From Allostella sp. ATCC 35155 (GTDB taxonomy: Bacteria > Pseudomonadota > Alphaproteobacteria > ATCC43930 > Allostellaceae), in assembly GCA_006738865.1 (NCBI GenBank), contig AP019701.1, positions 2,104,001-2,168,000 on the forward strand: 64,000 bases of DNA, read 5' to 3'. Within the stretch, counting starts at the first letter, position 1; each line of letters begins with the position of its first letter. The notes under the pieces are model-generated. The model made no database searches and had not been told where the DNA came from. It was given only the letters and a program-made list of their open reading frames with translations. A program made the position numbers and the translations under genes. Below, piece after piece: positions 2,970 through 28,449 of this stretch.

Positions 2970-3004
2970 CGGCCGTGAGCGCTATCGCGTCGGCCGGGTT
3001 GCCG

Positions 3005-3640: not shown

Positions 3641-3643
3641 CGC

Positions 3644-5479: not shown

Positions 5480-5485
5480 GGTCGG

Positions 5486-6778
5486 TCAGTCCTCGGCGCG
5501 GTGGACGACGCGACCGCCGAGCACGGTCAGCATCGTGCGGCCCTGCACCGGGCGGCCGTCGAAGGGCGAGTTCTTGGACTTCGACCGGAAGCGGTCGACG
5601 GCGATGCGCCAGGGCCGGTCCATGTCGACCAGCGCGAGGTCGGCCGGGGCGCCGATCTCGAGCCGGCCGCAGTCGAGGCCGAGGATGCGCGCGGGCGCGC
5701 GGCCGACCGCGTCCAGCGCCCGGTCCAGCCGCACGTCGCCCTGGTGGACGAGTTCCAGCACCAGCGGCAGCAGCGTCTCCAGCCCGATGACGCCGCTGGC
5801 GGCCGAACTGAAGGGCAGCCGCTTGGAATCCTGGTCGTGGGGGGCGTGATCGCTGGCGATGGCATCGATCGTGCCGTCGGCGATGCCGGCGACGACCGCG
5901 CGGCGGTCGCCGTCGCTGCGCAGCGGCGGCGACAGCTTGGCGAAGGTGCGGTACTCGCCGACCGCGGTCTCGTTGAGGGCGAAATAGGGGGGTGCCGTGT
6001 CGCAGCTGACCGGCAGGCCGCGGGCCTTGGCGGCGCGGATCGCCTCGACCGCGCCGGCCGTGGAGACATGGCCGGCGTGATAGCGCACGCCGGTCAGCTC
6101 GGCGAGGCGGAGGTCGCGCTCCAGCAGCACGATCTCCGCCGCAGCCGGGATGCCCGGCAGGCCGAGGCGGGTGGCGATCTCGCCCTCGTTCATGCCGCCC
6201 GGGTGCGACAGGGCCGGTTCCTCGGGATGCTGCACGATCAGGAGATCGAAGGTCCGGGCGTAGCTCATCGCCCGGCGCATGATGCCGGCATTGGCGATCG
6301 CGTGGGTCGCGTCGGTGAAGCCGACGGCGCCGGCGGCCGCCAGCATCCCCATCTCGGTCAGTTCCTTGCCGGCGAGGCCCTTGGTCGCGGCGCCATAGGG
6401 ATGGATGTTGGCGAGTCCGATCTCGCGGCCGCGGCGGCGGACGAACTCGACCAGCGCCACGTCGTCGATCGGCGGGTCGGTGTTGGGCAGGCAGACGATG
6501 GTGGTGACGCCGCCCGCGGCGGCGGCCTGGCTGGCCGTCGCCATGTTCTCCAGATGCTCGGCGCCCGGCTCGCGCAGCTGTGCGCGCATGTCGACGAGGC
6601 CGGGGATCAGCGTCATGCCGCGGCAGTCGACCGTCTCGATGCCGTCCGGCACGCCGTCGGCGAAGAGGGCCGGGCCGAGATCTGCGATGCGGCCGTCGAT
6701 GGCCAGGAGGCCGCCGGGCTGGTCGCGGCCGGCTGCGGGGTCGAGCAGGCGGGCGTTGACGAGGGCGAGGCGGCTCAT
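5486..6778 (-). CDS. pyrC: Dihydroorotase-like protein lacking the HxH motif (PyrC/PyrX type)
   Basis: Amidohydrolase-fold protein of 430 residues, clearly homologous to class I dihydroorotase, the third step of pyrimidine synthesis. Preserved features are VCLPNTDPPIDD, the lysine region ATKGLAGKELTEMG, RYHAGHVSTAGAV and SDHAPHDQDSKRLPF. However, the first metal motif, usually DMHVHLREPG, reads DMRAQLREPG: Arg65 and Gln67 replace both histidines. The usual HAEDP-like segment reads VQHPEEP. In Pseudomonas a comparable protein (PyrC'/PyrX) is non-catalytic and needed for assembly of aspartate transcarbamoylase. The gene starts 13 bases after pyrB in the same operon, consistent with a structural partner. 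Alternatively it is an alphaproteobacterial variant with altered metal binding. Confidence 0.85.
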   Translation of the reverse strand: MSRLALVNARLLDPAAGRDQPGGLLAIDGRIADLGPALFADGVPDGIETVDCRGMTLIPGLVDMRAQLREPGAEHLENMATASQAAAAGGVTTIVCLPNTDPPIDDVALVEFVRRRGREIGLANIHPYGAATKGLAGKELTEMGMLAAAGAVGFTDATHAIANAGIMRRAMSYARTFDLLIVQHPEEPALSHPGGMNEGEIATRLGLPGIPAAAEIVLLERDLRLAELTGVRYHAGHVSTAGAVEAIRAAKARGLPVSCDTAPPYFALNETAVGEYRTFAKLSPPLRSDGDRRAVVAGIADGTIDAIASDHAPHDQDSKRLPFSSAASGVIGLETLLPLVLELVHQGDVRLDRALDAVGRAPARILGLDCGRLEIGAPADLALVDMDRPWRIAVDRFRSKSKNSPFDGRPVQGRTMLTVLGGRVVHRAED

Positions 6779-6791
6779 GGGTTCACCCGGT

Positions 6792-7775
6792 TCACGGCCG
6801 TGCCTCCGCGGCGTTGCCCGAGTTGCTGCGGGCGAGGTTGTCGGCCAGCACCTCGAGGCAGGCCATGCGCACCGCCACCCCCATCTCGACCTGGTGGCGG
6901 ATCAGCGAGCGGTCGATGTCGTCGGCGACCTCGCTGTCGATCTCGACGCCGCGGTTCATCGGGCCGGGATGCATGATGAGGGCGTCGGGCTTGGCGACCG
7001 CCAGCTTGGCGTAGTCGAGGCCGTAGAAGTGATAGTATTCGCGCACCGAGGGCACGAAGCTGCCGGACATGCGCTCGGTCTGGAGGCGCAGCATCATCAC
7101 GATGTCGGCGTTGGCGAGGCCGCGCTTCATGTCGTGGAACACCTCGACGCCGAGCCGCTCGATCGCGGTCGGCAGCAGGGTGCGCGGCGCGACGACGCGC
7201 ACCCGGGCGCCCATGGTGTTGAGCAGCGCGATGTTCGAGCGCGCGACGCGGCTGTGCAGGATGTCGCCGCAGATGGCGACGACGAGACCGCGCAGGTCGC
7301 CCTTGCGGCGGCGGATCGTCAGGGCGTCGAGCAGCGCCTGGGTCGGGTGTTCATGGGTGCCGTCGCCGGCATTGATGACGGCGCAGTTGACCTTGTCCGA
7401 CAGCAGCTTGACGGCGCCGCTCTCCGGATGGCGCACGCACAGCACGTCCGGGTTCATCGCGTTCAGCGTCATCGCCGTGTCGATCAGCGTCTCGCCCTTC
7501 TTCATGGACGAGTACTCGACCGACATGTTGATGACGTCGCCGCCGAGCCGCTTGCCGGCCAGCTCGAACGAGGTGCGGGTGCGCGTCGAGTTCTCGAAGA
7601 AGAGGTTGATGATGGTGCGGCCGCGCAGCGAGCCGCCCTTCTTCTCGGAGCCCTGGTTGCGGGCGACGAATTCCTCCGACCGGTCGATCAGGTGAGCGAT
7701 CTCTCCGGCGGAAAGCCCTTCGATTCCCAGCAGGTGGCGATGGGGGTAACCGAGGGCGGCAGCGAGCGCGGACAT
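6792..7775 (-). CDS. pyrB: Aspartate carbamoyltransferase catalytic chain
   Basis: Condenses carbamoyl phosphate with aspartate to carbamoyl aspartate, the committed pyrimidine step. The 327-residue protein contains the carbamoyl-phosphate signature [20 protein letters not shown] near residue 59, [12 protein letters not shown] around 142, and [12 protein letters not shown] near the C-terminus, all canonical. Length is typical. It leads the pyrB-pyrC-OGT-plsY-dprA-topA run on the minus strand, separated from the upstream desuccinylase gene by a terminator-like hairpin at 7794-7840. No pyrI regulatory subunit gene is nearby, which fits a class A/B enzyme assembled with a dihydroorotase-like partner. 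Confidence 0.97.
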
Positions 7776-7793
7776 GAGCCGGTCCTATAGGTC

Positions 7794-7840
7794 AAAGGAC
7801 GGAGTCCGGGCAAGGCATCGCCCCGGCCCCGACTCCGTCC
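7794..7840 (-). terminator. Terminator-like hairpin between desuccinylase gene and pyrB
   Basis: A perfect 10-bp inverted repeat (GGACGGAGTC at 7797-7806, GACTCCGTCC at 7831-7840) encloses a 24-base loop that can pair further through CGGGC and GCCCG. Read on the minus strand the stem is followed by TTTGACC, so the T tract is short. It probably terminates the gene ending at 7866 and separates it from pyrB. Confidence 0.6.
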
Positions 7841-7865
7841 CTGGTCCACTCGGTTCCCGGCCGGA

Positions 7866-9029
7866 TCAGTCGTCGGTGCCGGGGCGCCCGACGCGGTGCG
7901 GCAGCTCCTTCTCGCAGGCCATGCGGAAGACGACCTGGCCCGGGAACGTCAACTGGCCGTCGCGCCGGCGGCTGAAGAGGACACCGGTCGCGGTCGCCTT
8001 GATCGGCAGGCGGCAGTCCCGGGCGAAGGGGTCGAGCGGGTCGATGATCTCGCACACCGTCTCACCGGCCTTCACCTTGACGCCGCGGTCCTTGAGATAG
8101 ACGAGCATTCCGGCGCGCGGCGCATAGGCGACGTCCATGCCCCAGGCGGGAGTGATCTTGCACTTCGGCTTGGGCAGCGCGCCGGGATCGCCGCCGATGA
8201 CGCCGCGCCGCTGCAGGAACTTGAAGAGCGCGGTGCCGTCCGACTTGCCGAGGGCATGGGAGACGTCGGCCTGGCCGCGATACTCGATCGTGACGGAGAA
8301 CGAGGTCTTGGGCAGGGCCGCATCCGGATAGGCCTTGGCCAGCTTCAGCCACGGCGCGATGTTGCAGGCGCTGAAGCTCATGACCTGCGGGATGGCGTCC
8401 GGCCGTCCGACGGTCGTCGCCTGGCTGCCGATCTGGGCCGAGAGGTCGGCGACCGCATCGGCATGGCTGGCGCCGGCGAAGAGGTGAAGCGCGGCGTGGG
8501 CGTCGCAATGCAGGTCGAGGACGTAGTCGGCATCGACCGACATCGCCATCAGCGTCTTCTTGAGGAACTGCGGCTCGTTCGGAGCGGCGAAGGATTCGAC
8601 CGCCTTGACCATCGCCTTGCGCACGATCTCGACGTTCTTCGCCTCGTTCTTGCCGAGCTTGCCCTCGACCTGGGCGGCGACCTGATCGCCGATGTCGAGA
8701 TAGTTGCGGTTGTAGTTTTCCCGCAGGTTGAAGTCGTAGCGGCCGAGATGGTTGGCATAGAGGTGCTGCGACATGCCGACCGGGTTGGCGGTCGGGACGA
8801 CGATGATCTCGCCTTGGATCTGGCCCGCCTTGTCGGCCGCCTCCAGCATCGGCAGCAGATAGTGCAGCGCCATGACGCCCGGCAGCTCGTTGGCGTGGAT
8901 GGCGGCCTGGAGATAGGCCTTGGGCCGCGCCCCCGCCTTGCCGAAGCGGTAGACGGTGAGGAAGCGTTCGGTTCCGGGGCTGTTCGACAGCAGGGGCACA
9001 CGGGTGGCGCGGCTGGGCATCGGTCGCAT
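7866..9029 (-). CDS. Succinylglutamate desuccinylase/aspartoacylase family protein
   Basis: M14-like zinc carboxypeptidase-fold amidohydrolase of 387 residues; the family removes acyl groups from N-acyl amino acids. The first zinc motif reads QAAIHANELPG near residue 41, with His and Glu kept although the usual Gly-Asp is replaced by Ala-Asn. A later DLHCDAHAALH segment supplies further candidate ligands. PTANPVGMSQ and FNLRENYNRNYLD are typical of the peptidase-like subgroup. No signal peptide is visible, so it is probably cytoplasmic. The substrate cannot be told from sequence; no arginine-catabolic (ast) genes surround it. It lies upstream of pyrB but is insulated by a hairpin. Confidence 0.85.
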   Translation of the reverse strand: MRPMPSRATRVPLLSNSPGTERFLTVYRFGKAGARPKAYLQAAIHANELPGVMALHYLLPMLEAADKAGQIQGEIIVVPTANPVGMSQHLYANHLGRYDFNLRENYNRNYLDIGDQVAAQVEGKLGKNEAKNVEIVRKAMVKAVESFAAPNEPQFLKKTLMAMSVDADYVLDLHCDAHAALHLFAGASHADAVADLSAQIGSQATTVGRPDAIPQVMSFSACNIAPWLKLAKAYPDAALPKTSFSVTIEYRGQADVSHALGKSDGTALFKFLQRRGVIGGDPGALPKPKCKITPAWGMDVAYAPRAGMLVYLKDRGVKVKAGETVCEIIDPLDPFARDCRLPIKATATGVLFSRRRDGQLTFPGQVVFRMACEKELPHRVGRPGTDD

Positions 9030-15792: not shown

Positions 15793-16107
15793 ATGAGGGC
15801 CGTACATCCCGGCGAGATTCTGAAGGAGGAGCTGGAAGGGCTGGGCGTCAGCGCGGCGGAGTTCGCGCGGCAGATCGACGTGCCGCCCAACCGCATCAGC
15901 CAGATCATCGCCGGCAAGCGGGCGGTGACGGGCGATACGGCCCTGCGGTTCGGGCACTGGTTCGCCACCGATCCGCAGTTCTGGCTCAACCTGCAAAGCG
16001 CCTACGACATCCGCATCGCGGAGGAAAAGGCCGGCGGTGAAATTGCCCGTCTGCCGGTTCGCGCAGGGGCGCCGATGGCGGATGCGGCAGGCCACCAGCC
16101 GGGATAA
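15793..16107 (+). CDS. higA: HigA-family antitoxin (HTH)
   Basis: A 104-residue antitoxin and transcription repressor with an N-terminal HTH_3 domain. MRAVHPGEILKEELEGLGVS begins the protein, followed by AAEFARQIDVPPNRISQIIA (the helix-turn-helix) and GDTALRFGHWFATDPQFWL, all typical. The last 20 residues (PVRAGAPMADAAGHQPG) are not conserved. GAGAAAGGAG lies about 10 bases before the in-frame GTG at 15787 and 16 before the ATG at 15793, so the GTG is an alternative start. As the neighbouring toxin is truncated, this is an orphan that may survive through autoregulation or by neutralising related toxins. Confidence 0.85.
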   Translation: MRAVHPGEILKEELEGLGVSAAEFARQIDVPPNRISQIIAGKRAVTGDTALRFGHWFATDPQFWLNLQSAYDIRIAEEKAGGEIARLPVRAGAPMADAAGHQPG

Positions 16108-16218
16108 CTGCCAATGAGACCGCTGGCAGAAGGGACCAGAACGCGCCAGCGCGTCCGGGCGGCACAGCGTGGTTCCAATGCCGCGCCCGGCGCCCTCGCC
16201 GCAAGCACGGAAGACCCC

Positions 16219-16560
16219 ATGCCCGAGCAGACACCGGTACCGCCCTCACAAGCGGCTCCCGACGCGGCCCTCGATACAAGAGGCTCGGAATTGATCGAGC
16301 CGTGCCGATACAAGCTTCTTTCACCGATATCCGCCGGCGAGAGCGAAGATCTTCTGGCCGGCAAATCGCAGGCGGATGGCCTGCGGCGCATGCAGGCGCT
16401 GCTTGCGCACTGGCTCCGCATGGAGAACGTGGTGGTGCTGATCGCGGCCGGCCTTTTCAACGTTTCGGGCGCGGCGGGTACGCCGCCATTCTGCTATGGT
16501 CGGGGGTCCGCTGAGGCCGGCCGCAGAGGGCCGCAATACAAGGGAAGGAATGGGCCATGA
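16219..16560 (+). pseudogene. Possible N-terminal stub of a SIR2-type protein
   Basis: A 113-codon frame from an ATG preceded by GGAAGACCCC. Its centre, LRRMQALLAHWLRMENVVVL followed by IAAGLFNVSG, resembles the start of SIR2-like domains in defence proteins, where a helix leads into VVVLxGAG(A/T)S. Here the GAG nucleotide loop has become AAG. The protein then runs out in low-complexity sequence across the peroxiredoxin start. If the similarity is real, only the first strand of the domain is left, hence a relic. It could instead be an unrelated small protein. It follows higA by 111 bases. Confidence 0.4.
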
Positions 16561-17219
16561 CCCTTCGAATCAATTCCGAAGCGCCGAACTTCACGGCCGA
16601 GACCACCGAGGGAAAGATCAATTTCCACGAGTGGATCGGCGACCAGTGGGCGATCCTGTTCTCGCACCCCAAGGACTTCACGCCGGTCTGCACGACCGAA
16701 CTCGGCTACATGGCCAAGCTGAAGCCGGAGTTCGACAAGCGCAACACCAAGCTGATCGGCCTCAGCGTCGACCCCGTCGCCAACCACGCCAAGTGGGCCG
16801 AGGACATCGCCGAGACCCAGGGCACGGCGCCCAACTATCCGATGATCGGCGACACCGAACTCGAGGTCGCCAAGCTCTACAACATGCTGCCGGAGGAGAT
16901 CGGCGGCGGATCGGAAGGCCGCACCGCGGCGGACAACGCCACCGTGCGCACGGTCTTCGTCATCGGGCCGGACAAGAAGATCAAGCTGATGCTGAGCTAC
17001 CCCATGACGACCGGCCGCAACTTCGACGAGATCCTGCGGGTGCTGGATTCGATGCAGCTGACCGCGAAGCACAAGGTGGCGACGCCGGTGAACTGGAAGA
17101 ACGGCGAGGACGTCATCATCGTCCCGGCGGTGTCGAACGAGGATGCCGCCAAGACCTATCCCGAGGGCTGGAAGACGCTGAAGCCCTATCTGCGCGTCGT
17201 GGCCCAGCCAAAGGGCTGA
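16557..17219 (+). CDS. 1-Cys peroxiredoxin (Prx6 type)
   Basis: Reduces hydrogen and alkyl peroxides through a single peroxidatic cysteine. The 220-residue protein contains HPKDFTPVCTTELGYM with Cys45 as catalytic residue. Thr42 is the usual Thr/Ser of the motif, and the resolving Arg appears in TAADNATVRTVF. The C-terminal extension PVNWKNGEDVIIVPAVSNED is characteristic of the Prx6 subgroup, as opposed to AhpC, and no AhpF gene is nearby. AAGGAATGGGCC precedes the ATG. It is followed 46 bases later by the persulfide dioxygenase fusion, suggesting a joint sulfur/peroxide stress function. Confidence 0.95.
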   Translation: MTLRINSEAPNFTAETTEGKINFHEWIGDQWAILFSHPKDFTPVCTTELGYMAKLKPEFDKRNTKLIGLSVDPVANHAKWAEDIAETQGTAPNYPMIGDTELEVAKLYNMLPEEIGGGSEGRTAADNATVRTVFVIGPDKKIKLMLSYPMTTGRNFDEILRVLDSMQLTAKHKVATPVNWKNGEDVIIVPAVSNEDAAKTYPEGWKTLKPYLRVVAQPKG

Positions 17220-17265
17220 GACAGGGAATGGGGGTGCCGGCGGACTGAGAGAAGGGAGGGGACCG

Positions 17266-18303
17266 ATGATCTTCCGACAGCTCTTCGACCAGACGTCCGG
17301 CACCTACACCTATCTGCTGGCCAGCCGCCCGGGCGGCGAGGCCCTCATCATCGACCCGGTGCTGGAGAAGGTCGACCGCTACATGACGCTGCTGCGGGAA
17401 CTCGACCTGCGGCTGGTCAAGGCGGTCGACACCCACCTCCATGCCGACCACATCACCGGCCTTGGTGCGCTGCGCGACCGCACCCGCTGCATCACCGTCA
17501 TGGGCGAGCAGACCAAGGCCGACATCGTCTCGATGCGGCTGGCCGACGGCGACCGGCTGACGGTCGAGGGCCTGGCGCTGGAGGTGATCTACACGCCCGG
17601 CCACACCGACGATTCCTACTGCTTCGTCATGGCGGACCGCGTCTTCACCGGCGACACGCTGCTGATCCGCGGCACCGGCCGCACCGACTTCCAGAACGGC
17701 GACCCGCGGCAGCAGTACGAATCGATCTTCGGTCGCCTGCTCCACCTGCCGGAGCGGACGATGGTCTTCCCCGGCCACGACTACAAGGGCGACACCGTCT
17801 CCACCATCGGCGAGGAGAGGGCCCACAACCCGCGCCTCCAGGTGCGCTCGGTCGACGAGTATGCCGAGCTGATGAACAACCTCAACCTCGCCAACCCGAA
17901 GATGATGGACGTGGCCGTGCCGGCCAACATGCGCATCGGCCTGCAGCAGGAGGCCGTCGCCCGCCAGGGCTGGGCCATCCGGGGGGGCGAGGCGCTGGCA
18001 TTGGCGGATGCGCCGGATGTCGTCTTCGTCGACCTGCGCGAGGCGGCGGAGCGCGAGCGCCACGGTGTCATCCCCGGCTCGCTGCACGTCCCCTATCCGG
18101 TGCTGAAGGAACAGATCGCCGAGGGCGGGCCGCTCTTCCATCTCGCCCGGCGCCAGGGCGGCCGGCTGCTCTTCTATTGCGCCTATGGCGAGCGCTCGGC
18201 CATGGCGGTCCAGGCCGCGCAGGACGGCGCGCTGGCGCGCTCCTGCCACCTCGAGGGCGGCATCGCCGCCTGGAAGGCCGCCGGCGGACGGGTCGCGCCC
18301 TGA
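17266..18303 (+). CDS. Persulfide dioxygenase-rhodanese fusion
   Basis: A 345-residue fusion. Residues 1-235 form an ETHE1-like metallo-beta-lactamase domain that oxidises glutathione persulfide to sulfite: THLHADHITG (residues 56-65) gives the iron ligands, with PGHTDDSYCF, VFTGDTLLIRGTGRTDF and FPGHDY further on. Residues 250-345 form a rhodanese domain with active-site Cys305 in FYCAYGERSAM, which moves sulfane sulfur between thiosulfate and glutathione persulfide. Such PDO-rhodanese fusions are known. The fusion lies just after a peroxiredoxin, consistent with sulfide or persulfide detoxification in the cytoplasm. Confidence 0.93.
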   Translation: MIFRQLFDQTSGTYTYLLASRPGGEALIIDPVLEKVDRYMTLLRELDLRLVKAVDTHLHADHITGLGALRDRTRCITVMGEQTKADIVSMRLADGDRLTVEGLALEVIYTPGHTDDSYCFVMADRVFTGDTLLIRGTGRTDFQNGDPRQQYESIFGRLLHLPERTMVFPGHDYKGDTVSTIGEERAHNPRLQVRSVDEYAELMNNLNLANPKMMDVAVPANMRIGLQQEAVARQGWAIRGGEALALADAPDVVFVDLREAAERERHGVIPGSLHVPYPVLKEQIAEGGPLFHLARRQGGRLLFYCAYGERSAMAVQAAQDGALARSCHLEGGIAAWKAAGGRVAP

Positions 18304-18343
18304 TCGCCGGGCGCGGCCGCCCATCGCGTCTCCTGGAGCCAGC

Positions 18344-18955
18344 ATGACGAGCATCTTCCACGGCCCCGACGGCCGACCCCGCTGCCCCTGGTGCGCGGCC
18401 AGCCCCGAGTATCTCGCCTACCACGACAGCGAATGGGGCTTTCCGGTCGCCGACGACCGGCGCCTCTTCGAGAAGATCTGCCTCGAGGGCTTCCAGTCCG
18501 GGCTGAGCTGGCGGACGATCCTCGCCAAGCGGGAGAATTTCCGAGCTGCCTTCGCCGGCTTCGATCATGAACGGGTCGCGGCCTTCGGGGAGGGCGATGT
18601 GGCGCGCCTGCTGGCCGATGCCGGCATCGTCCGCCACCGCGGCAAGATCGAGGCCGCCATCAACAATGCCCGGCGCGCCGGCGAACTGATCCGCTCGGAA
18701 GGCTCGATCGCCGCCTATGTCTGGCGCTTCGAGCCGCCGGCGGGCGAGGCGGGGGTGCCGCAGACGCGCTCGACCTCGCCGGAATCGGTCGCGATGTCGA
18801 AGGACCTGAAGAAGCGCGGCTGGGCCTTCGTCGGCCCGACGACCGTCTATGCCTTCATGCAGGCGATGGGGCTGGTGAACGACCATGCCGAAGGCTGCGC
18901 GATCCGCGACGAGGCGGCGCGCGCCCGCGCCGGCTTCCGGCCGCCGGGCCGGTAG
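18344..18955 (+). CDS. tag: DNA-3-methyladenine glycosylase I
   Basis: Base-excision repair glycosylase that removes 3-methyladenine. The 203-residue protein has PRCPWCAASPEYLAYHDSEW at the start (the zinc-snap cysteines and the Tag-specific HDxEWG). FEKICLEGFQSGLSWRTILA supplies the catalytic-region Glu, and the GWAFVGPTTVYAFMQAMGLV and NDHAEGC segments near the end carry the second zinc half. The start is the ATG at 18344, preceded by TGGAG; the longer frame overlapping the fusion gene is not family-like. Confidence 0.95.
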   Translation: MTSIFHGPDGRPRCPWCAASPEYLAYHDSEWGFPVADDRRLFEKICLEGFQSGLSWRTILAKRENFRAAFAGFDHERVAAFGEGDVARLLADAGIVRHRGKIEAAINNARRAGELIRSEGSIAAYVWRFEPPAGEAGVPQTRSTSPESVAMSKDLKKRGWAFVGPTTVYAFMQAMGLVNDHAEGCAIRDEAARARAGFRPPGR

Positions 18956-18987
18956 CTGTTCATCGGTAGCCGCCTACCGGTGGTGGA

Positions 18988-19224
18988 TCAGGGGTCCGTT
19001 CGCCGCGCGGTGTCCGCCGTCCGCGTGCCGCGTGCCCGCCGGACGATGCGCTGATGCGCCTCGCTGGCGTGGCGGAGGCCGGGATCGCGGGCGAGCGCCC
19101 GGCAGGCCCGCAGCAGATGGTCCAGCGTATCGAACTCGGGCAGTGTGCCGAGGTCGGGATGCCGCTCGCGGGGGGCGGCGGTTTGGGCGTCGCAGATCCG
19201 AAGGCGACCAAATGGTTTCGCCAT
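18988..19224 (-). CDS. Small hypothetical protein (78 aa)
   Basis: Not recognised. The frame starts MAKPFGRLRICDAQ with a strong ribosome-binding site (GAGGAG, six bases before the ATG at 19222-19224). It is followed by EFDTLDHLLRACRALARDPG, which looks like ordinary helical protein, and a very basic tail. It is convergent with tag and divergent from the hemerythrin gene, leaving about 170 bases for two promoters. Reality rests on the RBS and sensible amino-acid composition. Confidence 0.45.
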   Translation of the reverse strand: MAKPFGRLRICDAQTAAPRERHPDLGTLPEFDTLDHLLRACRALARDPGLRHASEAHQRIVRRARGTRTADTARRTDP

Positions 19225-19397
19225 GGGATGCTCCTCATGCTCGGGGGGCGGCAGAGTGCTCCGCTGGCGATGTTGCGCTGTCCATGTGGCAGGATTGCGG
19301 CGGAGGGTCCGCCCGGGAGGGGTGAAGGAGGGCCAGGGAACGGGATCGGTCGAGTCTGGTTGTCGACGCACTGACATTCCCATTTCCGGAGGACGCA

Positions 19398-19919
19398 ATG
19401 CCCGACACCAAGGACGCGATCGCCCTGCTCAAGGCCGACCATCGCCTGGTCGAGGATCTGTTCGAGAAGTATGAGAACGCCCGCACGGCGACGCAGAAGG
19501 CCAAGCTGGCCGAGCAGATCTGCCTCGAACTGACCGTGCACACTCGGATCGAGGAGGAAATCTTCTACCCGGCATGCCGCGGCGAGATGGAGGACGATCT
19601 CGTCGCCGAGGCGTTCGTCGAGCATGACGGCGCCAAGGTTCTGCTGGCCGAGATCGAGGCGGCCGAACCGGACGAGGAGTATTACGACGCCAAGGTCATG
19701 GTGCTGGCGGAGATGATCCGCCATCACGTCAAGGAGGAGGAGCGCCGCTCCGAGGGCATGTTCGCCCAGGCGCGCAAGGCCGGCCTCGACATGGAGGCGC
19801 TGGGCGCCGAGATGGCCCGGCGCAAGGCGGAACTGACGGCGGAGTACCGCAAGGGCGGGCTGCCCGCGCCCGAGACGACGACCTTCCACGCGACGCGGCT
19901 GGAGGCGCGCGCCGCCTGA
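19398..19919 (+). CDS. Hemerythrin HHE domain protein
   Basis: A 173-residue cytoplasmic protein with one hemerythrin-like four-helix bundle that can bind a diiron centre for oxygen, NO or stress sensing. Candidate ligands are in LLKADHRLVEDLFEKYE, LTVHTRIEEEIFYPACRGEM, FVEHDGAKVLLAEIE and EMIRHHVKEEE: His, His-x3-Glu, His and His. The C-terminal 50 residues (MEALGAEMARRKAELTAEYR) form a further helix outside the core. GGAGGACGCA precedes the start. No partner gene is obvious. Confidence 0.92.
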   Translation: MPDTKDAIALLKADHRLVEDLFEKYENARTATQKAKLAEQICLELTVHTRIEEEIFYPACRGEMEDDLVAEAFVEHDGAKVLLAEIEAAEPDEEYYDAKVMVLAEMIRHHVKEEERRSEGMFAQARKAGLDMEALGAEMARRKAELTAEYRKGGLPAPETTTFHATRLEARAA

Positions 19920-20042
19920 ACTCGGGCGGCGCCTGCGGACGCCGTTCCTCTGGCGGTTGGCGGGCGAGGTGGCTAGGGTCGTGGATGCGGATGTTCTTCC
20001 GCATCCATCCCCGCCCCAGAGCCCCGCCCGAGGTCGCCCGCC

Positions 20043-20906
20043 ATGAACGCTCCCGATCGCCTGCGCAAGCTGCTTGCCGAACCCGGCCTCGTCACCATGC
20101 CGGCGGTGTGGGACGGCCTCAGCGCAAAGATGGCGGCGGCCGCGGGCTTCAAGACGGCGTTCCTGTCCGGCTCCTGCGTCGCGGCCAGCCGGCTCGGTGG
20201 GCCCGACCTCGACCTCGTCTCGTTCGGCGAGATGTTCGATTCCTTCAACATGGTGCATGCCGCCGCGCCCGAGACGCTGGTGCTGGCCGACGGCGACCAT
20301 GGCTACGGCAATGCGATGAACGTGCAGCGCACCGTCCGCGCCTATGGCCGCGCCGGGGCGGCCGCCGTCCTCATCGAGGACAAGATCACGCCGCGCGCGC
20401 TGACCGCGGCCGGCAAGCCCTGCCTGCCGCCCGAGGAGGCGCGGATGAAGGTCCGCGCCGCCGTCGAGGCGGCGAAGGAGTCGGGCATCCTGGTCCTCGC
20501 CCGGACCGACTGCCGCCCGACCCAGGGCATCGACGAGGCCGTGGCCCGCATCGAGATGTTCGTGGAGGAGGGCGCCGACATCCTCTTTCTCGATTCGCCG
20601 GCCGACGAGGCCGAGATCCGCCGGGCCGTCGCCGCCGCCAAGGGCCGCCCGTCCTTCGCCGTCCTGTCGCCCGGCGCACCGCGCGCGACGCCGACCCAGG
20701 CCGAGGCGGCGGCGCTCGGCTTCAAGATCGGCACCTTTCCCACCGGGATGCTGTCGCCGGCGATCACCGGAATGAAGGCGGGGCTGGAGGCGCTGGCGGC
20801 GGGTGAATCGGAGTCCAAGGCGGCCCTGCCGCCGGCCGAGTTGCGGACGCTGCTGGGTTATCCCGCCTACGACGCGGCCGCCAAGCCGTTCATCGTCGCC
20901 GGCTGA
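20043..20906 (+). CDS. Isocitrate lyase/PEP mutase family enzyme, oxaloacetate-decarboxylase-like
   Basis: A 287-residue TIM-barrel enzyme of the PEP mutase/isocitrate lyase superfamily, which makes or breaks C-C or P-C bonds next to alpha-keto acids using Mg2+. VLADGDHGYGNAMNVQRTVR near residue 80 holds the metal aspartates and VLIEDKITPRAL the next conserved Glu. The mobile KKCGH-type loop of lyases is replaced by AGKPCLPPEEA. The length and the DGDHGYGNAMNV block resemble the oxaloacetate decarboxylase PA4872 group rather than methylisocitrate lyase. Substrate remains uncertain. The next gene is convergent, 19 bases away. Confidence 0.85.
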   Translation: MNAPDRLRKLLAEPGLVTMPAVWDGLSAKMAAAAGFKTAFLSGSCVAASRLGGPDLDLVSFGEMFDSFNMVHAAAPETLVLADGDHGYGNAMNVQRTVRAYGRAGAAAVLIEDKITPRALTAAGKPCLPPEEARMKVRAAVEAAKESGILVLARTDCRPTQGIDEAVARIEMFVEEGADILFLDSPADEAEIRRAVAAAKGRPSFAVLSPGAPRATPTQAEAAALGFKIGTFPTGMLSPAITGMKAGLEALAAGESESKAALPPAELRTLLGYPAYDAAAKPFIVAG

Positions 20907-20925
20907 CCGAGGGGCTGACCGAGGG

Positions 20926-22482
20926 TCAGAGGCCGGAAATTTCCCGCTCCAGAGCCGTCGCGACGAGGTCGACATCGGGATCGCGGCGGCCCCAGCGCCC
21001 GAGAAGCGTCCGCCGCTCCTCCGGCGCGCGGTAGCGCAGCCCGAAGGCGACGGCGGTGCGGAAGTAACTGTCGCTGCTGTCCGCCACCAGGTTCTCGAGC
21101 GCCTCCCAGCCGCGGCGCGAGGCGATCCGGGCCCAGAGGATCGCCGCCGCCGCGCGCAGGGGGACGGGCACCGCCCCATCGGCGGCGAGACGCGGCAGCG
21201 TGGCGGCGAGCGTGGAGGGAATGGTCGGGGCCGTCCAGAAGGCCGCCAGGATCCACATGCGCTGCCACGGGTGCAGCTCCCCGAAGCAGGCGGCGACGGT
21301 GGCGGCGGCCTGCTCGGCGATAGCGCGGTCGTCGAAGAACTGGCTGAGATAGAGCCAGTGGATGCGGATGGCCCAGGGCGCCGACCGCAGGCCGGTCAAT
21401 GCCAGCTCGATGCCGGCCGGATCGCGCGCGCGGCCGAGGGCGAGCAGCGCCCACCGCTCCGCATTGGTCGCGAACGCCCCGAAGCGGGAAAGGTCGGCGA
21501 TCGCAGCGCGCGCGGCCGCGACGGGATCGGCGGCGGCGGTGGCGTCGTCGATGAGGGCGATCACCGGGTCGGACCAGCCGGCGGTGAACTCCGCGCGCGC
21601 CGAGATTCCCGTCTTGGTCGGGTTGGGCTCGAGGCCGAGGCCGGCCAGTTCGGCCGTCATGCGGCGTTGGACGGCCTCGGCGGCCGCCGCGCCGTCGGCC
21701 AGCGCGACCAGCCCGTCGATCAGCCGGAAGGACGGAACCCCCATGGCCGCACACACCTCGTCCATCCGGGCCAGCGCGACGGTCACCATCTGGCCCGAAC
21801 CGATGCTGCCCGGCAGCCCGCACGGACCCATCGCCGGCGTCAGCGCCCGGTCGAGCCGGCGGCCTTCCTCCAGCCACTCGGGGCGCAGTCCGGCCGCGGC
21901 GAGGTCGGCGAGGAACCGGCCCCGGTCGATGGTGTGGCCGGCCCGCGCGACGTCGATCTTGAAGGCATGGGTCCAGCCGTCCCGGGCCAGCGCGGCGGAT
22001 ACCGCGCTGCGGTAGGCGGCCGCGCACCAGGGATCGGGGGCGACGAGTTCCGATTCGCCGGGACGTGGCGGCAGGGCCGAGAACACGCGCCGGCGGTCCA
22101 GCAGCGGTTCGGCCCGCGCGGCCGCGGCGGCGCCGAACAGCAGCAGCAGGGTGCGTTCCACCGGGGCCTGCGCCAGTTCGAGCCGTTCGCTGGCGCCCTC
22201 CGCCTCCGAATCGCGGCGCAGATAGCGATAGACGACCCCCGTGCCGAGCGGCCGGCGCGACCGGATGGCCGCGCGGATCCGGTCGAAGGCACGCTGCACG
22301 ACGATCTTGTAGTGCGGTGCGAACACGGTCTCGCGCGCCGTCTCGGCGAGGAGAGCCTGTCGGGCCGCGTTCCAGGTCCGCTCGTCGAGTTCGCTCGGCG
22401 GCGGCCAGTCCGCCATCGCTTCGGTTGCTTCGGGATGGGTCAGGAATGCCATGTGCCGCGGTAGCTGGGATTGCGTTGTCAT
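20926..22482 (-). CDS. Reverse-transcriptase-like protein with altered catalytic box and helical C-terminal region
   Basis: A 518-residue protein not matching a named family, but its middle follows the order of reverse-transcriptase motifs. Motif A is FKIDVARAGHTIDRGRF (Asp177, usual DxxxFFxxID spacing, FF changed to AG). Motif B is CGLPGSIGSGQMVTVALARM (GLPxG-like). The YxDD position reads FRLIDGLVALADG (Asp256 kept, second Asp changed to Gly257), and motif D is LGLEPNPTKTGI. Residues 300-518 are all helical and HEAT-like, as in unknown-group/Abi RTs. The start chosen is the ATG at 22480-22482 (alternative 22452); neither has a clear RBS. It is divergent from a GHKL/GNAT-like gene across 148 bases. 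Activity may be lost or changed; a defence role is inference. Confidence 0.6.
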   Translation of the reverse strand: MTTQSQLPRHMAFLTHPEATEAMADWPPPSELDERTWNAARQALLAETARETVFAPHYKIVVQRAFDRIRAAIRSRRPLGTGVVYRYLRRDSEAEGASERLELAQAPVERTLLLLFGAAAAARAEPLLDRRRVFSALPPRPGESELVAPDPWCAAAYRSAVSAALARDGWTHAFKIDVARAGHTIDRGRFLADLAAAGLRPEWLEEGRRLDRALTPAMGPCGLPGSIGSGQMVTVALARMDEVCAAMGVPSFRLIDGLVALADGAAAAEAVQRRMTAELAGLGLEPNPTKTGISARAEFTAGWSDPVIALIDDATAAADPVAAARAAIADLSRFGAFATNAERWALLALGRARDPAGIELALTGLRSAPWAIRIHWLYLSQFFDDRAIAEQAAATVAACFGELHPWQRMWILAAFWTAPTIPSTLAATLPRLAADGAVPVPLRAAAAILWARIASRRGWEALENLVADSSDSYFRTAVAFGLRYRAPEERRTLLGRWGRRDPDVDLVATALEREISGL

Positions 22483-22630
22483 GGAAATAGCACAAAGCGG
22501 CCGACCAACCGGACGCCTTGCCGATTGATCGTCCGTTGCGCGGCCGATAAGGATGCGCCCGAGGGCGAGCAGGGAGGCAGGGCATGTCGGAGCGGGCACG
22601 GCGCAGGCGCGGCAACTCCGCGATGCGGGC

Positions 22631-23911
22631 ATGAGACAGGCATCCCCCCAGGCCCTCGCGCGGATTCTCGCGGCCGATGTCTCGCGGTCGGCGGACGTGC
22701 AGGCCTCCGTGGCGCAGGCGGCGACCGGGTGTCGGCTCGATCCGTCGGCCGCCGCACGGCTGGGCCAGGCGGTCGAGGAGGTGTTCGTCTTCGTCGCCAC
22801 CCGTGCGCCCGGCAGTTCCTTCGCCATCGAGGTCCGGGACCGGCACTGGCGCGTCGAGGCCCGCCTGCGCTGCCGCCTGCCGGCGGCCGACCTCCATTGG
22901 TTCAACGTGACGCAGCCGATCGACGTCGCCGATCCGGACGCGCTCGAGGCGCTCGGCCTGCTCCTGGCGTCCCGCCTCGTCGGCAGGCTCTCGGTGGCGC
23001 TCGAGCCGGATGGCGGCGTCGTCCTGTCGCTGGAGCAGATCCGCAGCTACGCGATGCCGGGCGAGGCGCTGGGCGGGGAGACCCTACCCGGCGGCGATAG
23101 CCGGCCGGAGCGCGCGGACGCCGCGGCGATCGCCGGCCTCGCCGCGCTGTTCCGGCGTCGCTTCGGCATGGCGGTGCCGCGCCCGTTCGTCGCCAACGCG
23201 CTGGCGCAGGACATGGCGGGCGCGGGCGACCTCGCGGCGCTGGTGCTGCGCGACGGCGGCGGTTGGGTTCGCGCCGGCATCGCCTGGACGATGCGCTCGC
23301 CGCGGCTAGCGGAGGTGCTGGGGCCGGTCGTCGCCGACGACGACCCCGCGACCGCCGCCGTCCTGGTCGAGGCCACGCTGGCGGCGCTCCGCGGCACCGG
23401 GGTCACCATGATCTTCGCCGAGGAGCGCGGGCCCGCTTTCCCGGAAGTCGAGTTCGACTGCCTCGGCCGCCTCGGCTCACGGCCGCTGCATTTCCGGGTC
23501 GTGGCGGAGGATGGTGGCGCCCTGTCCTGGGCGGACCCGGTGACGCGCCCGTTCCTGTCGGTGTTCTACGAGGCGCTCGCCCTCGACCGCGGGGTGCGCG
23601 ACGCACCCGAGCCGGAAGGGGAACGGCCGGCGAGAGGCCTGCTCGCGGTGGAAATCGACCGCGTCGCCAGCCGGGTCACGCTGCGCCCGCTGCTCGACGG
23701 AGCGGACCTGGTGGCGCTGATCGAGCGCCATGTCGAACGCTTCGCCGACGAGGGGCTCGATGATTTCCGCTTCGAGACGGACCACGGCGTGCCCTGGCAG
23801 GGCCGCCTCGGCCCGGACCTCATGCGCGCCGGATTCTTCCCCCGCGTCGTCCTCCCGCATGGCGGGCTGGGCGATGTGATCGTATGGGAGCGGGACTGGC
23901 TGCCGGGCTGA
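22631..23911 (+). CDS. Degenerate GHKL (anti-sigma-like) plus GNAT-like fusion
   Basis: A 426-residue protein. Residues 10-140 have the layout of RsbW-like ATP-binding domains: ARLGQAVEEVFVFVATRAPG stands where the N-box ExxxNxxxHA should be, and LEALGLLLASRLVGRLSV matches the GLGL lid helix. Yet the N-box Asn is Phe and the DxGxG box is absent, so ATP binding is doubtful. Residues 165-426 resemble the acyltransferase-like half found in anti-sigma/GNAT fusions, ending GLGDVIVWERDWLPG. No RBS supports the ATG at 22631; 22553 is an alternative. It is divergent from the RT-like gene and is followed by a large inverted repeat. Confidence 0.6.
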   Translation: MRQASPQALARILAADVSRSADVQASVAQAATGCRLDPSAAARLGQAVEEVFVFVATRAPGSSFAIEVRDRHWRVEARLRCRLPAADLHWFNVTQPIDVADPDALEALGLLLASRLVGRLSVALEPDGGVVLSLEQIRSYAMPGEALGGETLPGGDSRPERADAAAIAGLAALFRRRFGMAVPRPFVANALAQDMAGAGDLAALVLRDGGGWVRAGIAWTMRSPRLAEVLGPVVADDDPATAAVLVEATLAALRGTGVTMIFAEERGPAFPEVEFDCLGRLGSRPLHFRVVAEDGGALSWADPVTRPFLSVFYEALALDRGVRDAPEPEGERPARGLLAVEIDRVASRVTLRPLLDGADLVALIERHVERFADEGLDDFRFETDHGVPWQGRLGPDLMRAGFFPRVVLPHGGLGDVIVWERDWLPG

Positions 23912-23928
23912 TCGGCGCTGCCGGCGCC

Positions 23929-24138
23929 GGTGCGTCCTTCGACTGCTTCGCTTCGCTTCGCGCTCAGGACAAGGACCGACCATAACTATCTGAAAATAAT
24001 GCCACTCCTGTTTCCAGACGATCACGTCGCCCAACCCGGGACACGAGTACGGCGAGAAAAGGACAGGAACGCTTCTTCTCGAATAGTGATGGTCGGTCCT
24101 TGTCCTGAGCGCGAAGCGAAGCAGTCGAAGGACGCACC
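23929..24138. repeat. Long inverted repeat pair (REP/BIME-like) in a convergent gap
   Basis: The left arm at 23929-23983 and the right arm at 24089-24138 are reverse complements over 50 bases. They are identical except for one extra 5-base unit (GCTTC) in the left arm. They contain the TTGTCCTGAGCGCGAAG / TCGAAGGA type of sequence that recurs in many alphaproteobacterial genomes. They flank 105 bases and sit between two converging genes, so they may act as a bidirectional transcription stop or an mRNA-stabilising structure. Confidence 0.85.
24002..24058 (-). pseudogene. Inverted relic of the 3' end of the GHKL/GNAT gene
   Basis: On the minus strand this segment reads FSPYSCPGLGDVIVWKQEW. The end of the gene at 22631-23911 reads FFPRVVLPHGGLGDVIVWERDW. 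The GLGDVIVW core is identical, and ten of eleven bases around it are shared in GGGCGATGTGATCGT versus GGGCGACGTGATCGT. The rest of the second copy is gone; it lies inside the inverted repeat. It is probably the tail of a lost paralogue or of an inverted duplication. Confidence 0.6.
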
Positions 24139-24172
24139 GACGGATGCCGCCGCCGATCCCTGCCGGGGCCTT

Positions 24173-24856
24173 TCAGCACTCGGCCCAGTCGCGCAGCAGG
24201 TTGTGATAGATGCCGGTCAGCCGCACGACGGCATCGTCGCTCTGACCGCGCTCGGCGCCGAGATCCTGGATCGTGGTATCGAGCTCGAAGAGCAGGCGGC
24301 GGTGGGCGTCGCTGCGAACCATGCTCTGGATCCAGAAGAAGGACGCCACGCGCGCGCCGCGCGTCACGGGCGTGACATGGTGCAGGCTCGAGGCCGGGTA
24401 GAGGACGAGGTGGCCGGCCGGCAGCTTCACCTGCTGCGCTCCGAAGGTGTCCTCGATCGTCAATTCGCCGCCGTCATATTCCTCCGGCTCGGCGAGGAAG
24501 AGGGTGGCCGACAGGTCGCTGCGGATGCGGAAGTCGCTGCCGCGCAGCTGCCGGATCGCGTTGTCGACGTGGGTCTTGAACTCCTCGCCGCCGGCATAGC
24601 GGTTGAACAGCGGCGGAAACACCTTCAGCGGAAGAGCGGCCGAGATGAAGGTCGCGCTGCGGCCGAGCGCCGCCAGCACCGCCTCGCCGACCTGGCGGGC
24701 GGCGGGCGAGCCCTCGGGCAGCTGCTGGTTGCGCTTGGCCAGGGCCGATTGGCTGCCCGACGTGGCGTTGCCGTCGGCCCATTCCGCCGCGTCGATCACC
24801 TGCCGGCAGCGGGCGACCTCGGTCTTCGACAGGACGGCGGGAATCTGCAGCAGCAT
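24173..24856 (-). CDS. PKHD-type Fe(II)/2-oxoglutarate hydroxylase (PiuC/YbiX-like)
   Basis: A 227-residue cytoplasmic dioxygenase of the PiuC/YbiX family, usually found with siderophore receptors and induced by iron starvation. Iron ligands are His and Asp in [13 protein letters not shown] and the distal His in [20 protein letters not shown], where the Arg would bind 2-oxoglutarate. The N-terminus [20 protein letters not shown] is typical. The ATG at 24854-24856 is chosen for family length (about 226). A Fur-like dyad lies about 56 bases upstream at 24912-24926. No receptor gene is visible next to it. Confidence 0.92.
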
Positions 24857-24911
24857 CGGGGGCTCTCGGGCGGCGACGACATGCGGCCGGTAGCACGCCC
24901 GAGATTCCGAT

Positions 24912-24926
24912 TGCAACGCATTCGCA
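24912..24926 (-). promoter_or_regulatory. Putative Fur-type operator upstream of the PiuC-like gene
   Basis: TGCAACGCATTCGCA is a 7-1-7 imperfect dyad. It matches the site at 45766-45780 at 13 of 15 positions and fits the TGCnAATnATTnGCA type of box reported for alphaproteobacterial Fur. Its position before an iron-starvation gene supports the call; the assignment to Fur rather than Irr or Mur is inference. Confidence 0.5.
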
Positions 24927-24951
24927 TCAACTGCGCCCGCCCGCCGCAGCG

Positions 24952-27258
24952 TCAGGCGGGCGCCAGTACCGTCCGTGCGCTCGCCTCCGCTGCGATCCGG
25001 GACCAGTCGTAGAGCATCGGCACCATGCGCCCGGCCGTCCAGTCCGGGTTCTGATCGGCATAGTGCGGGCTGCCGGGATGGCCCGATGCGCCATGGAAGA
25101 CGGCCCAGCGGCAGCCGTCCCAGTTGCCGACATCGAAGACGTAGCGGGCTACCGCGCCGTAGGCGGCGGCGAAGCCGGCCGAGCAGATCATGCCGGTGGC
25201 CAGCACGCAGTCATTGTCGCCGCCGACCGGCAGCGAGGGCGGGTCGAGCAGGGGCGCCGCCTCGGGAAACTGGGCGGAGAGGGGGTGCGCGAAGCGGGGC
25301 CGATGCAGCGCGGCCCACTCCGCATCCGCCGCCGTACCGTCGGCCGCGGCCTGCGCCAGCGCCTCCGACAGCGCCGCGTCCCAGTCGAGGGCGCCGAGCA
25401 GGCCAGCGTCGTCGGCGCGCAGCAGGTTGGGCAGGGTCCACCAGAGCTGGTTCGCCGCCAGCACCGGCGGCGGTACCTGCAGCAGCGGGTTGGAGCGGGT
25501 GCCATCGAGACCGGACCGCTCCACCAGCAGCAGGGTCAGCGCCCGGCGGATGCGGGCATAGGCGGCCGCGGCCGCGGAGCCGCCGTCCATCCTGCCGTCC
25601 CAGGCGGCCAGACGGTCGCGCAGTGCCCGCGCGGCAGCGTCTGCCGGCTCCAGCCGCAGGATGCGCTCGCGCAGCAGGGCGGCGTTGGGCGAGGCCGTGT
25701 CCATGTGGATCGCGGCCATGTCCTCCGGCGCCCAGCGCTCCGTGCCGGCCAGCAGTGCGGCGATCCGGGCCGCGCGATAGGGCGGGTGGCAGTCGGTCGT
25801 CAGGTAGTCGGGATGGTCGTCGGCGACGACGCGGTTGTTGGCGGTGACGATCGCGCCGCCCGGCGGATCGAAGACGCGCGGCATCTCCTCCCACGGGATC
25901 ATGCCCTGCCACTCGTGCGCGCCGGTCCAGCCGGGAACCGGCAGCCAGCCGTTGACGCGCGGCCGGCGCGGCACCTTGGCGCGGACCAGATGGCCGATGC
26001 GGCCGGCGGTGTCGGCCGCGACGAGGTTGTGGTCGATGAGGCCCCATTCGCGGGTCGACTGGAAGAAGTCCTCGACCGTCCGGGCGCGCAGCATCGGCAG
26101 CAGGCAGTCGAGCGAGCGGTCCGTTTCGGCCACCTGCACGCTGCGCAGCGTCACCGCCGCGCCGCTCGCCGGGTCGCCTGCGATGACCGGTCCGTGATGG
26201 GTTTCGACCACCGTGATCTCGACCGGGGCCGCGCCGCGCACCGCGATCCGCTCGATCCGCCGCACCGTCGGCAGCCATGCGTCGCGGAACTGGTAGGCGC
26301 CGTCGTCGCCCGGCCGGAAGCGCTCGACGAAGAGGTCGTAGATGTCCATGAAGGCGTGGGTCACGCACCACGCGACGCTGCCGTTGTGGGCGAAGTGCGG
26401 GAAGGCCGGCACGCCCGGCACGGTCAGTCCGATCGCGTCGAACTCCGGGCAGGCGATGTGGCCTTGCGCGTACATGCTGGGGATCTCGAAGACCCGGTGC
26501 GGGTCGCCGGCCAGGATCGGGCGGCCGGTCGTCGCGCGCTCCGGTGCCAGCGCCCAGTTGTTGCTGCCGCCGCCGGTCGCGTCGTCCCCGCCCAGCGCGG
26601 CCAGGGCCTCCAGGGCGGGGGCCAGGTTCGCCAGGGTCGCCACCCAGCGGTCGGCCTCGACACCGGGCGGGATGCAGAGCAGGTCGCGGCCGCCATCGTC
26701 GTAGCGCAGCTTCGTCACCTGCTCCGGTCCGACGATGCGCAGCGCGGCTGCCCGCCACAGCTTGAACCAGATCGACCCCATCAGGAAGCCGCGCTGGCGC
26801 ATCGCCGCGATGCTCTGCCACGACTCCCAGGGCTCGAACTCGGCGCCGAGCAGGCGATATTCGGCCGGCAGGTGGCCGCGGTCCGCGAAGGCGTTCACCC
26901 CGGCGGCATAGGCCGCCAGCATGTCGCAGGTTTCGGCCGAGGCGGCCGCGAGATCGCGGCGCGAGGCGGCCTCGACGCCCGACCGCCTGGCCAGCGCGTC
27001 GGCGGCGACGGCGCCCGGTCCGGCCCATTCCGCATAGCGCCCGACCGCGCGGCGGCGCGCGGCGTCCATTTGCCAGAGCCGGTCCTGGGCGTGCGCGAAA
27101 CCCTGCGCGAAGAAGGCGTCGCCGACGCTTCCGGCGCGGATGTGCGGGATGCCCCAGCGGTCGCGGACGATCTCGGCGGGACCTTCGATCCCGGCGACGA
27201 TGGTGCGTCCTTCCATCGGTGGTACCGCCGCCCGCATCGCTTCCGCATCCATCGCCAT
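24952..27258 (-). CDS. Penicillin acylase family protein (Ntn hydrolase)
   Basis: A 768-residue member of the penicillin acylase family, self-cleaving N-terminal-nucleophile amidases acting on beta-lactam side chains, acyl-homoserine lactones and other N-acyl compounds. The predicted processing point is before Ser232 in [18 protein letters not shown], the new beta-subunit N-terminus. [20 protein letters not shown] at residues 32-51 is the typical alpha-subunit start, and PILAGDPHR follows the nucleophile. Unlike most members there is no signal peptide, so it is probably cytoplasmic. GGAGGTCAGCG precedes the start. It is divergent from the amide-uptake operon at 27346, suggesting a related amide substrate. 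Confidence 0.92.
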
Positions 27259-27282
27259 CGCTGACCTCCGTCGAATCCCCTC

Positions 27283-27305
27283 TTGTCGGATATATCATAT
27301 AGACG
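27283..27305. promoter_or_regulatory. AT-rich dyad between penicillin acylase and ABC operon
   Basis: The 87-base divergent gap contains an isolated AT-rich block with the perfect 8-bp palindrome GATATATC (27289-27296) within GTCGGATATATCATATAGAC. In DNA otherwise near 70% GC this is the likeliest spot for the divergent promoters. It is a candidate operator for the GntR/FCD regulator encoded at 31199. Confidence 0.4.
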
Positions 27306-27345
27306 CTAGCGTTCCGGGCAACGCAGCGAACGGCGGGGCGACGGG

Positions 27346-28449
27346 GTGGCGCGGAACGCGGTGAATTCGGAGGGGCGGGTTGCCGTCCACGACCTGGTGA
27401 AGCGGTTCGGGTCGGTGGCGGCCGTCGACGGCGTGTCGCTGGATGTCGCCGCGGGCGAGTTCGTGGCGCTGCTCGGGCCCAGCGGCTCGGGCAAGACGAC
27501 CATCCTGATGGCCATCGCCGGCTTCGAGTACCCGACCTCCGGCCGGGTCGAGATCGGCGGCGAGGACGTCACCTGGGCGCCCGCCAACAAGCGCAACCTC
27601 GGCATGGTCTTCCAGCGCTACACGCTCTTCCCGCACATGAGCGTGGCCGAGAACATCGCCTTCCCCTTGAAGATGCGCGGCATCGGCCGGGTCGAACGCG
27701 AGCGTCGGGCATTGGCCGCGCTCGAGACCGTGCGTCTGGCCGGCTATGGCGAACGGCGCACCAACCAGCTCTCCGGCGGGCAGCAGCAGCGCATCGCGCT
27801 CGCCCGCGCCATCGTCTACCAGCCGCGCGTGCTCCTGATGGACGAGCCGCTGTCGGCCCTCGACAAGAACCTGCGCGAGGAGATGCAGCTCGAGATCAAG
27901 CATCTCCAGCAGCAGCTCGGCATCACGGTCGTCTTCGTGACCCACGACCAGACCGAGGCGATGACGATGGCCGACCGCGTCGCCGTCCTCGACCTCGGGC
28001 GCCTGCAGCAGGTGGGCGCCCCGCGAGACCTCTACGAGGCGCCGGCGACGCCGTTCGTCGCCGGCTTCATCGGCGAGACGAACTTCCTGCCCGGCCGCGC
28101 CGTGGCCGCCGCCGCCGCGGGCGAGACCTTGGCGGTCGATCTCGATGGCGGCGGGCGGGTCGCGGCGGTCGCCGTCGACCGGCTCGCGGCCGGGGCGGCG
28201 CTGCGGCTGGCCGTGCGGCCGGAACGGGTGCGGCTGGCGCCATCCGCCGGCGGCCTGGGCGGCACCGTAGTCGAGGCGATCTATGCCGGCGTCGCGACCA
28301 CCCTGATCGCCGAACTCGGCGGCGAGCGCCGGGTGCGCGCCCGCATCGCGGCCGGCACCGGCGAACGGAACTGGTCGGACGGCGAGGCGGTCGACGTCTC
28401 CTGGCGGCCGGAGGATGCGCGCGCCTTCGCCGCGGGCGCCGCGGGATGA
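27346..28449 (+). CDS. ABC transporter ATP-binding protein (PotA-like)
   Basis: A 367-residue importer ATPase of the polyamine/iron/opine-type (PotA, FbpC) family. Walker A is LLGPSGSGKTTILMAIAG, the Q-loop is GMVFQRYTLFPHMSVAENIA, the signature is LSGGQQQRIALARA, and Walker B is VLLMDEPLSALD followed by the switch His in VFVTHDQTEAM. A C-terminal TOBE-like domain (RLAVRPERVRLAP) follows. The start is a GTG at 27346. It opens a nine-gene operon and overlaps the first permease by four bases. The substrate is suggested by the linked amidohydrolase genes, not by the ATPase itself. Confidence 0.95.
   Translation: MARNAVNSEGRVAVHDLVKRFGSVAAVDGVSLDVAAGEFVALLGPSGSGKTTILMAIAGFEYPTSGRVEIGGEDVTWAPANKRNLGMVFQRYTLFPHMSVAENIAFPLKMRGIGRVERERRALAALETVRLAGYGERRTNQLSGGQQQRIALARAIVYQPRVLLMDEPLSALDKNLREEMQLEIKHLQQQLGITVVFVTHDQTEAMTMADRVAVLDLGRLQQVGAPRDLYEAPATPFVAGFIGETNFLPGRAVAAAAAGETLAVDLDGGGRVAAVAVDRLAAGAALRLAVRPERVRLAPSAGGLGGTVVEAIYAGVATTLIAELGGERRVRARIAAGTGERNWSDGEAVDVSWRPEDARAFAAGAAG

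Follow-up and report, generated by a model that had tools for sequence, protein, structure and literature searches.

Antiphage reverse transcriptases (RTs) are understood through the DNA that they make. What, then, could be the role of an RT-like protein whose catalytic motif C has lost one of its two aspartates? This question is raised by a gene of Allostella sp. ATCC 35155 that lies in the window, by which we mean the whole stretch of 64,000 nucleotides that was analysed. An earlier note, made from the letters alone, had described its product as an RT palm followed by a HEAT-like C-terminal half of the Abi/unknown-group (UG) kind, and had suggested that it might be either catalytically altered or purely structural.

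An RT palm with altered motifs A and C

The gene and the parts of its product, in coordinates of the window, are as follows:

20926..22482, minus strand: gene for a UG20-related, catalytically altered RT (ATG at 22482, stop at 20926-20928, 518 aa)
21568..22404, minus strand: RT fingers and palm, residues about 27-305 (VIA-align ranges, AlphaFold model)
21937..21954, minus strand: motif A, D177 V A R A G182, with the aromatic FF changed to AG (alignment)
21778..21819, minus strand: motif B region GLPGSIGSGQMVTV, residues 222-235, with GLPG at 222-225 (alignment)
21709..21726, minus strand: motif C, R253 L I D256 G257 L, YVDD in UG20 (alignment; predicted strand-turn-strand at 251-262)
21610..21624, minus strand: motif D, N287 P T K290 T (NPTKT, 287-291), Lys kept (alignment)
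20929..21570, minus strand: HEAT-like/alphaRep helical domain, residues about 305-518 (model helices, alphaRep and HEAT/ARM matches, RT_UG20 profile match)

The start codon of this open reading frame is uncertain because the starts of the paralogues described below align with an alternative later start, Met23 (22416). All four motifs claimed in the earlier note were found, at D177, GLPG (222-225), D256 and NPTKT (287-291), and both replacements that it had pointed out, Gly for the second catalytic Asp and AG for FF after motif A, are real. D177 lies within KIDVARAGHTID, with A181 at D+4 and G182 at D+5, a position at the steric gate of RTs; where every UG20 protein has FF or YF after this Asp, the window protein has AG. 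D256-G257 is embedded in FRLIDGLV, and the LIDG of the window protein corresponds to YVDD in all seven full-length UG20 proteins and in one partial protein. The Gln and Asn of UG20 motif B are both absent in the alignment; loss of the Gln was considered as a sign of degeneration and dropped, as this residue varies widely in other UG RTs. Just ahead of the fingers motif, Y85 (22228-22230, minus strand) is common to all three members of one paralogue type (A) and one of the other (B), and its position recalls the AbiK loop carrying the priming Tyr.

By sequence, the window protein is a genuine relative of the UG20 antiviral RTs, which are its nearest group. PADLOC RT_UG20 is its best profile (E 3.1e-34), scoring 117 bits in two pieces as against 736-759 bits for true UG20 proteins and matching residues 322-510 in the C-terminal half; UG32, UG23 and UG21 come next, and RT_UG20 is likewise the top profile for all five proteins of the lineage. 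BLASTP against two true UG20 proteins gave 3e-16 and 7e-21 with most of the length covered, the full-length identity being 21-23%. Pfam RVT_1 alone fell below the cut-off (E 0.12), and a sequence search of the PDB gave no match. A chance motif or a shadow open reading frame is ruled out by the paralogues, the profile match and the fold.

The fold was predicted by AlphaFold, with the window protein aligned to seven UG20 proteins as input. The model, of moderate confidence (mean pLDDT 63), includes a motif A strand (172-179), a motif B helix (229-246), a motif C hairpin (251-262) and helices from 296 to the end; the C-terminal helices are mostly at pLDDT 70-90, and residues 180-231 are poorly predicted. 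In the Foldseek check that the earlier note had proposed, the class 1 antiphage RTs DRT6, DRT4, AbiA, UG15, Abi-P2 and AbiK ranked highest, interspersed with G2L4 and group II intron RTs; E values ran from about 3e-6 to 2e-4. VIA-align placed residues 27-309 on RTs (group II intron, DGR and DRT; Z up to 12) and residues 292-518 on alphaRep and HEAT/ARM folds; Z was about 10-12 for both regions, a value that is weak for helical repeats taken alone and agrees with the sequence evidence. The model and the fold matches thus show, with moderate confidence, the class 1 architecture of RT fingers and palm fused to a C-terminal alphaRep/HEAT-like domain. Profile, alignment, phylogeny and predicted structure all agree with the palm and helical half proposed earlier.

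The window gene is surrounded by hemerythrin, isocitrate-lyase-like and transport genes and an unnamed gene, with no recognised defence island; among these surroundings, only the isocitrate-lyase-like gene is conserved in the sister species (G001) and in another member of the genus (G003). A gene divergent from it (22553-23911, plus strand, about 426 aa from the likely start) belongs to no Pfam family, and its N-terminal part resembles an anti-sigma-type ATPase domain by eye; nothing supports a functional link to the RT gene.

Paired paralogues and the order of residue losses

The source genome (5.34 Mb, one contig) carries two further copies in tandem near 5.197 Mb, a B gene (MMDD) upstream of an A gene (LVDS) with a 4-nt overlap. 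The sister species carries such a pair at the corresponding locus, again B (LLDD) then A (LIDG) with a 4-nt overlap; in both genomes the pair is flanked by glnD and a class II aldolase gene. We call A those members that have lost the second motif C Asp (three of three: Gly, Gly and Ser), and B those with the full Asp pair (two of two). The window gene belongs to the A type and stands alone, with no B gene adjoining it. Two other genomes of the genus (G002 and G003) have no such pair at the glnD/aldolase site, where their aligned flanks are about 140-170 bp apart. In the source genome, a gene for an N6 methylase/HsdR_N fusion and a type I specificity-like gene (3108-6331 of the 5187000-5206000 segment) lie about 1 kb away from the aldolase gene that borders the pair. 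On one side of them is a truncated copy of the beginning of a YifB/ComM-like gene and on the other that gene in full (region 2284-8488 of the segment), as though they had been inserted with target duplication; G001 and G003 have the YifB/ComM-like gene there in a single copy.

The lineage thus has five known members, the window copy and two A/B pairs, from two of the four members of the genus. No further member turned up in about 850 different genomes (43 of the order, 385 and 388 in two class-level draws, and 398 from the phylum), where the matches were ordinary UG20 and more distant RTs. Genome and viral contigs scanned by alignment and plasmids scanned by tblastn yielded no relative of the window protein, although records near the source genome may be masked there; nor did viral contigs searched with a UG20 protein. 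The source genome also encodes a separate RT (about 1430965-1432668, 567 aa) with an intact FIDD, whose best UG profile is UG17 and whose C-terminal part is RNase H-like by eye.

In the tree, the five members form a clade sister to UG20 (97/90) and outside the UG20 clade, both clades being supported. A and B are each separate clades at 100%; within A, the window copy branches off first, and its branch is no longer than those of the paired copies. The branch leading to the five has 1.5 changes per column, deep branch lengths being approximate because several members have an unusual amino-acid make-up. As a control, 36 other RTs about as far from UG20 (15-22% identity) were taken from profile searches; their frames were set by the profile match without consulting the motif, and they were filtered for an alignable first motif A Asp and motif C Asp, the second Asp not being used. 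In all 36, the D+5 residue is aromatic (Phe or Tyr), neither motif C Asp is changed and the Gly of motif B is present. The motif A aromatic pair is absent from all five members of the lineage, D+5 being Gly in four and Asp in one (G0_A). The tree and the residue pattern are most simply explained if the aromatic pair disappeared before A and B diverged, and the second Asp at the root of the A clade. The paired paralogue with an intact Asp-Asp and the loss of the aromatics in all five go beyond the first reading of the locus. No naturally inactive UG/Abi RT was found in the literature searched.

Possible roles of the altered protein

We tentatively favour the reading that the window protein descends from a UG20-type enzyme and is now a non-canonical RT subunit, acting probably as helper or activator, and that A and B assemble with B as the candidate catalytic partner. 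A small lineage would have split from UG20-type defence RTs (class 1-like, RT plus alphaRep), lost the two aromatics that follow the Asp of motif A and then duplicated, one duplicate (A) additionally losing the second motif C Asp. The products of the overlapping genes would assemble together, A being a non- or poorly polymerising subunit that would still bind metal and nucleotide; the solo copy in the window may work alone or with the distant B. Class 1 RTs are trimers or hexamers in which the helical domain touches the neighbouring RT domain (PMC9508834; PMC13174585), and the catalytically inactive DRT3b still enhances DRT3a (PMC13174585), which is why we read A as a helper; contact between A and B is envisaged by analogy. 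In trypanosomes, too, partners are activated by catalytically dead paralogues (PMC3663545, PMC6221367). We infer assembly, division of labour and a role in phage defence. Against the helper reading count the fast evolution of A and B, which also fits relaxed constraint, the window copy without an adjoining B gene, and the lack of recognised defence genes next to it. B may itself not be a normal polymerase, since it too is without the motif A aromatics.

The residues that A and B retain also bear on their roles. Thirty of the 227 UG20-invariant columns are kept in all five members, D177 and D256 among them. R100, R110, N287 and K290 survive only in the A types (three of three), the VPK fingers motif and D257 only in the B types (two of two), a reciprocal pattern that is only suggestive because it is based on three and two sequences. 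A bolder version strikes us as quite improbable: that the two are reciprocally degenerate subunits of one complex with open steric gates, B contributing the acidic triad and VPK and A the arginines of the fingers and the lysine of motif D, and that only jointly can they make a nucleic acid, perhaps using ribonucleotides.

An unlikely but more serious alternative to the helper reading is that the protein has remained a polymerase or nucleotidyltransferase whose chemistry has changed, D177 and D256 holding the metals and the sugar pocket, opened by loss of the D+5 aromatic, admitting ribonucleotides. Both Asps are invariant in the five members, every A type retains R100 and K290, and the Gly (four) or Asp (one) at D+5 is set against Phe or Tyr in all 36 other RTs; viral RNA polymerases have Asp at D+5, as G0_A does, and the GDN of mononegavirus L proteins is a precedent for a single-acid motif C. 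However, the second Asp is kept in all 36 other RTs and all seven full-length UG20 proteins, the UG20 motif B Gln and Asn are changed too, though the Gln varies among UG RTs, and substitution of one catalytic Asp in AbiK abolished activity (PMC9508834).

It is less probable still that these genes are relics drifting after the loss of catalysis, with no present function. Their presence across the genus is patchy and their divergence is fast: between the two species, amino-acid identity within a type is about 45-50% as against 90-96% for the flanking genes. The pair has pN of 0.35-0.37 and pS of 0.52-0.53, and the flanking genes 0.03-0.06 and 0.36-0.37; pN/pS is 0.66-0.79 as against 0.07-0.15, ratios that are rough because pS is near saturation. 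The higher pS of the pair suggests that it may be older than the species split or have been exchanged. Yet pN is below pS throughout, all five open reading frames of about 500 codons are intact, at 43-50% identity within types, with coding-type GC by codon position, the metal Asps are invariant, and the solo copy has evolved on no longer a branch than the paired ones.

That the RT fold is purely structural, the alphaRep half binding protein or nucleic acid with the palm unused, is doubtful at best: conservation is somewhat higher in the helical half than in the palm (58% vs 44% for G0_A and G1_A, 52% vs 40% for G0_B and G1_B), but D177, D256, R253, G222 and D241 of the palm are invariant in all five members and in UG20. 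Of the two options in the earlier note, the altered motif stands, and the retention of D177 and D256 throughout the lineage speaks against the purely structural one.

Comparison with known RT systems

DRT3 resembles the A/B pair in having two RTs per unit (DRT3a and DRT3b), and in it an inactive class 1 member can help the other. Its two RTs differ from A and B, which are paralogues of one lineage, in coming from different classes and using an ncRNA. The window gene is solo, with no adjacent RT of another class, and no Rfam RNA was matched near it (16000-28000). UG20 RTs, with examples in Rhizobium, Bradyrhizobium, Chelativorans and Rhodopseudomonas, share with the window protein whole-length homology, the order of fingers, palm and helical domain, and a place in sister clades. 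Unlike it, they have D[VI]AN[FY]F, QG, YVDD and an acidic linker, and they are only 21-23% identical to it; canonical UG20 is a single gene with no partner gene in common. Class 1 UG/Abi RTs whose structures have been solved (DRT6, DRT4 (UG15), AbiA, Abi-P2 and AbiK) likewise have RT fingers and palm followed by an alphaRep/HEAT-like domain. They are characterised DNA polymerases or defence RTs, 8-14% identical to the window protein in structural alignments, and the class is marked by template-independent, protein-primed DNA synthesis and by assembly into trimers or hexamers. The lineage is a variant of this known UG/Abi kind with an altered active centre, and a copy with an altered site kept beside an Asp-Asp copy would offer a natural test of the RT fold as a regulatory subunit, or of a change of substrate after loss of the steric gate.
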